Positions 33,607 through 64,000 of a stretch of DNA of 64,000 nt are shown here, piece after piece. The position numbers and the translations under genes were made by a program. Location of the stretch: positions 21,365 through 85,364 of the forward strand of contig NZ_JADZDS010000078.1 in NCBI RefSeq assembly GCF_020850895.1. The letters are read 5' to 3'. Below the pieces are notes generated by a model, which made no database searches, was not told where the DNA came from, and saw only the letters and a program-made list of their open reading frames with translations. Origin of the DNA: Thermomonas sp. (GTDB lineage: Bacteria; Pseudomonadota; Gammaproteobacteria; Xanthomonadales; Xanthomonadaceae). How positions within the stretch are numbered: the first letter of the stretch is position 1; every line of letters begins with the position of its first letter.

Positions 33607-35496
<1,890 letters not shown>

Positions 35497-35610
35497 CGCA
35501 TCGCCCTGCCGACCGCGTCGGCCATTTCGTGCGCCCGATCCCGACGCCGGTGTGGCCTTGGTCACGTTTCAAACACTGTCTTGGATCGGATGGGATTTTC
35601 GCACGTTGCT

Positions 35611-35626
35611 TGGCACGCTTCCTGCG
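35611..35626 (+). promoter_or_regulatory. Candidate sigma54 (RpoN) promoter
   Basis: TGGCACGCTTCCTGCG against consensus TGGCACG-N4-TTGCW: GG at -24 and GC at -12 with exact 12-bp spacing; one change in the -12 block (CTGC for TTGC) and G for the final A/T. Expected start near 35636. No protein gene follows on this strand for about 370 bp, but a structured stretch ending in an intrinsic terminator does. Confidence 0.65.
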
Positions 35627-35636
35627 AAATCTCCGA

Positions 35637-35756
35637 TAGCGCTCGACGTGGCACGCCCGTACTCCCCGGGCGATGGTCGGACTGAACAGGGGCCGATCCT
35701 GCGCACATCGAGAAAGCCCGAGGGCCGGTTGTCGGGGGACAGCCGGCCCTCTTTTT
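35637..35756 (+). ncRNA. Candidate sigma54-dependent small RNA
   Basis: About 120 nt between the sigma54-like promoter and a strong terminator, with no open frame of note. Predicted stems: GCCCG/CGGGC (35655-35671), GGTCGG/CCGATC with a 12-nt loop containing CUGAACAGGGG (about 35676-35699), and the terminator stem (35720-35751). It is transcribed away from mnmG. Target and function unknown; called from promoter, structure and terminator only. Confidence 0.5.
35720..35756 (+). terminator. Strong intrinsic terminator with T5 tail
   Basis: Stem GAGGGCCGGTTGTC (35720-35733) / GACAGCCGGCCCTC (35738-35751), 14 bp with one G-T pair, loop GGGG, followed directly by TTTTT (35752-35756). The only possible plus-strand transcript to end here starts in the mnmG upstream region. 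Confidence 0.85.
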
Positions 35757-36009
35757 CGTCTGCGAATGGTCCGCGACCGAAAGTGCCGGTGCCTGCAGGA
35801 CATGCGGAACAGGGGGGATCCGGGAAGTCCCGCCAGGCACCGGCGGGTTTAGATTACCCCGTTCCGACGCGATGTGACGCCGTTTGTCAGGTTTTCGACA
35901 AGCTGCGGTTCAGACTGTGACGGCGTTCCGATTTTACCCGGATGCAGCATGGGAGGCCCCCCTCCTCATCCGTGCTGTTGCCGTGCAGACGCCGCGCTAG
36001 CATTTGCCG
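35757..36009. other. Intergenic remainder before the PLP enzyme gene
   Basis: No credible ORF. The main feature is an inverted repeat GCCGGTGCCTG (35785-35795) / CAGGCACCGGC (35834-35844) with a 38-nt interior. The rest should contain the promoter of the following gene, but I see no convincing -35/-10 pair. Confidence 0.4.
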
Positions 36010-61205: not shown

Positions 61206-61295
61206 CCGGAGGCGAGGGCGGGATTCCCGCCTGTGTTACGATTAGCGGTTCCCTGCCGTGCTTGACGCGGCCCAACCGAAACGGTGGCAAGACCC

Positions 61296-63167
<1,872 letters not shown>

Positions 63168-63199: not shown

Positions 63200-63226
63200 A
63201 CGGCCGCTCTGCGGCCGTTTGTTTTT
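63200..63226 (+). terminator. rpoD intrinsic terminator
   Basis: ACGGCCGC (63200-63207), loop TCT, GCGGCCGT (63211-63218), then TTGTTTTT. It ends at the last codon of the convergent HNH gene. A weaker GCACCC/GGGTGC stem (63172-63191) precedes it. Confidence 0.85.
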
Positions 63227-63621
63227 CAGCGGTTCGCGAGCAACTTGCCCATGTCCATTGCGGGTGCGTGGGTTTCTGCGTGGCAGTTCGCGCAGAGCAA
63301 GATGCATTTGGCGAGTTCGCGCAGGACGTCTTGTTCGCTGCGGTTCGAAAGCGAACGCAGGTCGAGATGGAATGATTTCCTGCCGGCATCCAGATGATGC
63401 CAGGTCAAAGCCGCGAGGTTGCGATCATATCCACAATTTGAACAACGCCCACCCGCGGCGGACACCAACTCAAGCTTCCGCTTCAGGCCGCGGGCCTGCT
63501 GGCTTGCGTAGTTCTGATGCCGATGATTGGTGTCAGCGTTCTTGCAACCTCGTGAACAGAACCGGCGTTGCCTCCCAATCAACACATGCTTGCAGATCAC
63601 GCAGCGGAGCTTGGATTTCAT
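63226..63621 (-). CDS. Small HNH-type zinc-finger nuclease-like protein
   Basis: 131 residues. N-terminal zinc ribbon CVIC...CSRGC (residues 8-26), then a beta-beta-alpha-metal HNH core: [19 protein letters not shown] and [14 protein letters not shown]. This is the form of many small HNH endonucleases of phages and introns. The coding strand is visibly less GC-rich than its neighbours, hinting at transfer. It lies between rpoD and the intron-bearing tRNA, reading away from the tRNA; start 71 bp from the tRNA. Confidence 0.8.
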
Positions 63622-63692: not shown

Positions 63693-64000
63693 GGGCCTAT
63701 AGCTCAATGGTCAGAGCAGGGGACTCATCGAAAGGTGCCGCCATGCAGGAATGCGTGGACGGGAACGGGATGAATTCAGGGAAACCTTTGCGGCACGGCC
63801 GATGGCAACCCTGAGCCAAGCCGGCGGTACACCGCCGGAAGGTGCAGAGACTACCTGAGGGCTGCAGTGCCCTTGATTACAGGCTCGAGCGTCCCGCACC
63901 CCAACGACGCAAGTCGCGGGTGAAGAGATAGTCCGCTCCGGAGGGAAACCTTCGGCAATAGCGAATCCCTTGGTTCCAGGTTCGAGTCCTGGTGGGCCCA
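63693..64000 (+). tRNA. tRNA with CAU anticodon, probably tRNA-Ile2, split by a group I intron
   Basis: Exons 63693-63728 and 63964-64000 join to a 73-nt tRNA without CCA (the window ends at the discriminator A). Acceptor GGGCCTA/TGGGCCC, D-stem GCTC/GAGC, anticodon stem GGGGA/TCCCT with loop CTCATAA, T-arm CCAGG-TTCGAGT-CCTGG. CAU could be elongator Met or Ile2 (lysidine-modified by TilS); the overall sequence resembles Ile2 genes more. The junction falls after the anticodon U36. Confidence 0.92.
63729..63963 (+). ncRNA. Group I intron (IC3-like) in tRNA(CAU)
   Basis: 235 nt, ends in G (omega-G). P1: exon CAU plus C pairs with GGUG through a GAAA tetraloop (63726-63737), with a U-G pair at the splice site. 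P2: CCATGC/GCGTGG (63741-63758). P4: TCAGGG/CCCTGA (63776-63781 with 63809-63814). P5: TTGC/GCAA. P6: CCGGCGG/CCGCCGG (63821-63838). P7: GACTA/TAGTC (63849-63853 with 63929-63933). P8: AGGGC/GCCCT (63858-63873). P9: CCGGAGG-GAAA-CCTTCGG (63938-63955). Core strings closely match the recalled Azoarcus tRNA-Ile intron (GGUGxAGAGACUA, AUAGUCC). No internal ORF. Confidence 0.92.

Follow-up and report, generated by a model that had tools for sequence, protein, structure and literature searches.

A preliminary description of a 64,000-nucleotide stretch of Thermomonas sp. DNA (the window) proposed that a sigma-54 promoter drives a small RNA next to mnmG. This raises the questions of what that RNA is, how firmly it can be assigned to RpoN, and what it acts upon. 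Our analysis identifies the RNA as asX1, finds its promoter conserved, and points to a second small RNA, convergent with asX1, as its probable target.

asX1 and its sigma-54 promoter

The small RNA in the window is the already catalogued asX1, and the RNA itself is not new. In a covariance-model search it scores 73.6 bits against a gathering score of 70 for RF02235, with model positions 1-115 of 115 covered, and the transcript predicted from the sequence is ~117 nt long. asX1 was reportedly described by Schmidtke et al. in 2012 as a Xanthomonadaceae sRNA from X. campestris pv. vesicatoria. Two papers that cite Schmidtke et al. 2012 mention it as a discrete expressed sRNA in relatives (PMC12189769, PMC4652430).

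The asX1 fold is considerably more stable than expected (z = -4.2, with none of 200 shuffles as good), and 18 of the 30 consensus pairs have compensatory two-sided changes in an alignment of 36 diverse homologues. An outer closing stem encloses two inner hairpins and is accompanied by an intrinsic terminator. Both of the interior stem-loops proposed earlier are present, although their layout differs in that they sit within the outer stem; the 14-bp terminator stem and its T5 tract lie where they had been placed (Table 1). The terminator loop UCGGGGGAC and the second-hairpin loop GAACAGGGG are nearly or fully invariant among homologues. This second loop reads GAACAGGGG in the window and GGAACAGGGG in most genera, and forms part of an open stretch of ~12 nt, the conserved ACUGAACAGGGG. 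We also considered a CsrA-type GGA motif in the loop and rejected it, as it is absent from the loop in the window's genus.

The putative promoter, first read as TGGCACG-N4-CTGC with exact -24/-12 spacing, is confirmed as TTGGCACGCTTCCTGC, and its -24 element does lie 115 bp from the start codon of mnmG, which is encoded on the other strand. To these we can add a broad comparison, comprising 30 relatives found with RF02235 and ~80 further loci, all with enough upstream sequence. The strict pattern TGGCAY-N6-TGC occurs in 102 of the 110 asX1 upstream regions (expected in 0.4% of 50-nt windows), and the looser TGGnn-N7-TGC in all 110 (expected 2.9%); the T, G, G and distal TGC are invariant, and in 96 cases the element is at -28 or -29 from the Rfam start. 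The proposal of a sigma-54-driven small RNA beside mnmG thus stands on the covariance-model identity, the promoter in 110/110 loci, and the covariation of the stems. Because the promoter is so conserved, RpoN control of asX1 is strongly supported. The source genome codes for one RpoN (a 518-aa frame), adjoining lptB, hprK, and rapZ.

In the literature searched, which excludes the original asX1 paper, we found no report of RpoN control of asX1 and no regulator or target for it; within that scope its conserved sigma-54 promoter appears to be unreported. The site is also absent from the RpoN literature searched on Xanthomonas and Xylella, as would be expected for the Xylella screen, since this covered the coding strand of annotated genes alone (PMC3224663).

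In Xanthomonas loci (L086, L100, L122, and L135), the asX1 promoter is preceded at 30-50 bp by a nearly perfect CRP/Clp box (TGTGA-N6-TCACA), a hint that Clp may provide an input in that genus.

A second structured RNA and a candidate enhancer

The flanks of 30 asX1 loci share a second element, 49-222 nt beyond asX1 and with the core CGGAACAGGGGGGATCC; in the window, 30 bp separate asX1 from the hairpin that it forms. The preliminary description found asX1, which was already catalogued, and missed this opposite-strand partner, the more novel part of the locus. A covariance model of the partner (R1) matches the window at 35855-35771 on the minus strand with 66.4 bits, the fold in the window has z = -4.5, and the predicted transcript, from about 35845 to 35778, consists of the hairpin followed by CACUUUC. 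Among aligned hairpins, 92.2% of 1,250 cells are paired, a level reached by none of 500 shuffles, and two-sided changes occur at 13 of the 21 stem pairs. The wobble pairs give the strand, with 148 G-U cells when read on the minus strand versus 25 A-C cells (wobble on the plus strand only), which argues that the partner is a minus-strand RNA.

A minus-strand promoter of the form TTGCR-N16-19-nARKCT is present in 46 of 128 partner loci (expected 0.0055 each), and it is retained even though different genera have different genes on the right, a plus-strand dehydratase in Thermomonas (PLP-dependent in the window) and a minus-strand lipoprotein gene elsewhere. The Thermomonas partner promoter differs, with TA(A/C)(T/G)CT directly at the hairpin. 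The possibility that the element is a plus-strand second copy of the asX1 motif in the same transcript is rejected by the G-U polarity and the side on which the promoter lies. These comparisons show the existence, strand, and covariation of a second structured RNA, which we predict to be transcribed. A search of Rfam returned no family for it, and it is apparently unreported in the literature searched, the original asX1 paper again excluded.

Table 1. Coordinates of the asX1/partner locus in the window
Feature	Position	Strand	Evidence
mnmG (gidA), divergent neighbor, not part of the RNA system	33607-35496	-	TIGR00136, 890 bits
Sigma-54 (-24/-12) promoter of asX1, TTGGCACGCTTCCTGC	35610-35625	+	Sequence; core kept in 110/110 asX1 loci
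asX1 sRNA (RF02235)	35640-35756	+	Covariance-model match, 73.6 bits; covariation in 36 homologues
Conserved asX1 apical-loop motif GAACAGGGG, complementary to the partner loop	35684-35692	+	Alignment, loop variants, deep homologues
asX1 intrinsic terminator	35720-35756	+	14-bp stem (35720-35751), invariant loop UCGGGGGA, then T5
Partner sRNA hairpin	35785-35844	-	Covariance model, fold, covariation
Partner apical-loop core GGAUCCCCCCUGUUCCG	35805-35821	-	Invariant in 60 aligned sequences; variants in distant relatives
Candidate -10-like TAATCT for the partner	35851-35856	-	TA(A/C)(T/G)CT conserved in the window's genus
Candidate PilR enhancer, GACGC-N5-GTCA	35876-35889	.	pilA-type motif; occurs once in the 64-kb window

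A scan of 85,462 species genomes with the 17-mer loop core found at least 118 stretches, of which 80 were listed. Nearly all of those listed are in Xanthomonadaceae and have asX1 close by, and they span six genera (Xanthomonas, Stenotrophomonas, Lysobacter, Luteimonas, Pseudoxanthomonas, and Thermomonas); among the matches listed, the others, which include unrelated phyla, are single chance matches with neither hairpin nor asX1. Among 299 family genomes, model searches detected the partner in 273 and asX1 in 267, nearly always as a single copy. Present as a single-copy RNA in about nine-tenths of these genomes, the partner has the appearance of a new RNA family and is a candidate core regulator. 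The physical linkage of the two RNAs is also clear from these loci: they lie on opposite strands in 117 of 119, and the remaining two entries (L010 and L087) both represent a single Lysobacter profundi locus, in which asX1 is inverted.

As rpoN is present in 295 of the 299 genomes, its co-occurrence with asX1 is uninformative. The clearest loss (genome G083) lacks rpoN, asX1, and the partner together, which is one data point, and one genus (g10) lacks both RNAs and keeps rpoN. Searching the order more widely, we found the partner adjoining mnmG in other families too. RF02235 found no asX1 in those families, and at 10 of 11 loci outside Xanthomonadaceae a sigma-54 promoter drives a diverged RNA that is beyond Rfam detection. 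At L264 (genome G039, family f5) the partner and the GGAACAGGGG motif are kept and rpoN, pilR, and ntrC are present, and we saw no sigma-54 promoter; loss of rpoN, the expected reason, is rejected, as the contig carries the gene.

In another family, seven loci (L256, L258, L260, L262, L263, L265, and L266) have a second sigma-54 promoter on the asX1 strand, ~160-320 nt away on the partner's other side, which drives a small frame (e.g., MDFNFDFQPVY..HDLLIELG); in most, a PilR-like motif lies between the two promoters. One record titled Bacillus subtilis (JAHREJ010000011.1, L126) carries a Stenotrophomonas-like asX1/partner locus, and that assembly is probably contaminated or misnamed.

Three strong enhancer-binding proteins are encoded in the source genome. 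Two are NtrC and PilR; the third has GAYTGA in place of GAFTGA and is encoded, with its histidine kinase, next to a MacB-like ABC exporter and glmU (contig G000:C125, locus L047). Of the three, PilR alone is shared by all nine of the asX1-bearing genomes that we compared: three (G195, G225, and G265) gave no NtrC match, and three others (G007, G194, and G210) lack the third protein. The PilR gene of the source genome adjoins pilA, which is preceded by a sigma-54 promoter of its own, and the motif GACGY-N5-GTCA is present upstream of pilA at all five pilA sigma-54 promoters beside pilR. At 102 of 128 partner loci (expected 1.4%), this motif recurs beyond the partner, on the side away from asX1. 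The source genome has ten such sites, and just two of them, at pilA and at asX1, lie within 300 bp of a sigma-54 element. As the only shared enhancer-binding protein, and with its pilA-type motif enriched at this locus, PilR is probably the activator of asX1, and it would bind at this candidate enhancer.

The candidate enhancer is 214-484 nt downstream of the asX1 start, an unusual but possible arrangement, and 230 nt upstream in the inverted L. profundi locus. In the interval where an upstream activating sequence was sought (80-200 bp upstream), a candidate motif occurs in only 11 of 109 asX1 upstream regions; an enhancer there is rejected, with nothing conserved except mnmG coding sequence. 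Activation by NtrC or by another enhancer-binding protein, with the RNA pair answering to nitrogen status, is a doubtful alternative that still deserves weight. NtrC is one of the three proteins in the source genome, and rpoN has been linked to nitrogen starvation in Xylella (PMC3224663); against this, the three asX1-bearing genomes without an NtrC match have PilR and the third protein, and inspection of the asX1 surroundings revealed no GCAC-N7-GTGC site of the kind present at glnA.

Complementary loops and a proposed mechanism

The open loop of asX1 had been proposed to pair with mRNA. The loop is indeed open and conserved, but its best-supported pairing partner is the second sRNA: GAACAGGGG (or GGAACAGGGG) is the reverse complement of CCCCUGUUC(C) in the partner loop, where CCCCUGUUC occupies 35807-35815 on the minus strand. 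Seven of the pairs, ACAGGGG with CCCCUGU, are wholly inside both apical loops. When both loops are shuffled, 7 bp arise in 1.1% of trials (P about 0.01), and the full match of 9-10 bp arises in 0.04-0.09% when the asX1 loop is shuffled (4e-4 to 9e-4). Dinucleotide shuffles of the whole of asX1 (Altschul-Erikson) are less stringent, reaching nine Watson-Crick bases in 3% of cases and in 38% when G-U is allowed, so the length of the complementarity alone is weak evidence.

More telling are the variants. Classical covariation between the loops is scarce, since both are nearly invariant inside the family, and partner variants there are mostly outside the complementary ten bases, with L204 and L213 as exceptions. 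At L198, however, the asX1 loop is rewritten to AUACAGGGGGG and still matches CCCCCCUGU over nine bases. Outside the family, the sigma-54 RNA can still form 6 to 11 Watson-Crick pairs with the partner loop at 10 of 11 loci, with CAGGGG opposite CCCCUG in all ten of these RNAs; L257 and L259 have CAGGGGGAAUC, an 11-base perfect match to GAUUCCCCCUG in a shifted register. The complementarity of the loops is conserved across these loci, and differing asX1 sequences that complement one partner loop are the strongest sequence-level sign of direct pairing, from which we infer that asX1 and the partner pair in cells.

We propose that two convergent small RNAs make up the locus: asX1 would be made by RpoN holoenzyme once an enhancer-binding protein, probably PilR, is active, and the partner would be made constitutively from a sigma-70-type promoter, presenting its C-rich apical loop. 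The asX1 loop (GAACAGGGG, elsewhere GGAACAGGGG) would contact the partner loop, CCCCUGUUC(C), through a 7-bp kissing interaction that subsequently lengthens, taking the partner out of action, such that asX1 would be an RpoN-switched antagonist. By analogy with Xanthomonas sX13, the partner may itself target mRNAs whose start regions are G-rich. We put the probability of this reading as a whole, an RpoN/PilR-switched asX1 that antagonizes a convergent sRNA by loop pairing, at roughly 0.55.

The direction of control, asX1 acting against the partner, and its consequence are suggested by the promoter types together with the CJnc180/CJnc190 and sX13 precedents. In Campylobacter jejuni, CJnc180 antagonizes CJnc190 (PMC8687705); those RNAs are cis-antisense, whereas asX1 and the partner are convergent and non-overlapping with a proposed loop-to-loop contact, and the proposed antagonist here, unlike in that system, is sigma-54 driven. 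The C-rich loops of sX13 bind G-rich mRNA (PMC3771888), and sX13 and the partner are both structured Xanthomonadaceae RNAs with C-rich apical loops; they differ in sequence and locus, and no antagonist is known for sX13, which carries three C-rich loops. The sigma-54-dependent CrcZ/CrcY of Pseudomonas and GlmY of enterobacteria are decoys (PMC8657755, PMC7073468, PMC6075780) and resemble asX1, as proposed, in being transcribed with RpoN and in lifting the action of another regulator. The molecules captured by CrcZ and GlmY are proteins (Hfq/Crc and RapZ, respectively), whereas asX1 would sequester an RNA, and by inspection the window asX1 has no CrcZ-type AAnAAnAA (unpaired CA-rich) motifs. 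If this is correct, asX1 gains a regulator, RpoN, probably with PilR, and a target, a new and highly conserved sRNA; a sigma-54-controlled RNA would be silencing an RNA rather than a protein, in several families including crop pathogens and soil bacteria.

We can speculate further that this is an order-wide switch, in which PilR~P at one shared enhancer activates asX1 through RpoN and also blocks the partner promoter, such that pilus or surface status would be converted into the loss of a C-rich master sRNA at two levels, its transcription and its loop-loop pairing with asX1; we offer this extension only tentatively.

The complementarity is symmetric and would equally serve reverse or mutual control, in which asX1 regulates mRNAs containing CCCCUGUUC and the constitutive partner is a threshold-setting sponge; what is left of asX1 in one family is a terminator and a brief single-stranded segment, which could serve as a targeting RNA. 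This is unlikely, given that the switched, sigma-54 expression is on the asX1 side, that the short L257/L259 form has little besides the anti-partner stretch, and that the partner core is the most conserved element, as expected for an RNA with several targets. It is less probable still that asX1 alone matters as an independent sigma-54 sRNA, the hairpin being a DNA or terminator element and the shared motif a coincidence or duplication. Both sequences are G/C-rich and the whole-asX1 shuffles leave some room for chance, but the covariation and G-U polarity of the partner, a sigma-70-like promoter that greatly exceeds its background frequency, and the preservation of complementarity by different sequences in other families all speak against this reading. 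Finally, mnmG is the usual neighbor (27 of 30 relatives have it no more than 1.5 kb upstream of asX1) and many relatives have a -10-like TAAAAT or TATAAT between its start and the sigma-54 site, but a purely cis effect, with RpoN holoenzyme at the asX1 promoter overlapping and repressing the divergent mnmG promoter and the RNA a by-product, is highly improbable given that the asX1 structure covaries and that asX1, its promoter, and the partner persist at L010, L011, and L035 without mnmG within 1.5 kb upstream.

Other features of the window and genome

A Group I intron (RF00028, 67.8 bits) lies at 63716-63955 on the plus strand of the window, just downstream of an rpoD-like gene (frame 61284-63167); ARAGORN found no tRNA. 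Near the intron is a small CxxC/HNH-like frame (63226-63621, minus strand), for which there was no Pfam or NCBIfam match. Elsewhere in the genome, contigs C39 and C114 of G000 carry tandem copies of CGGAACAGGCGG near their ends, at 30- or 60-base spacing.
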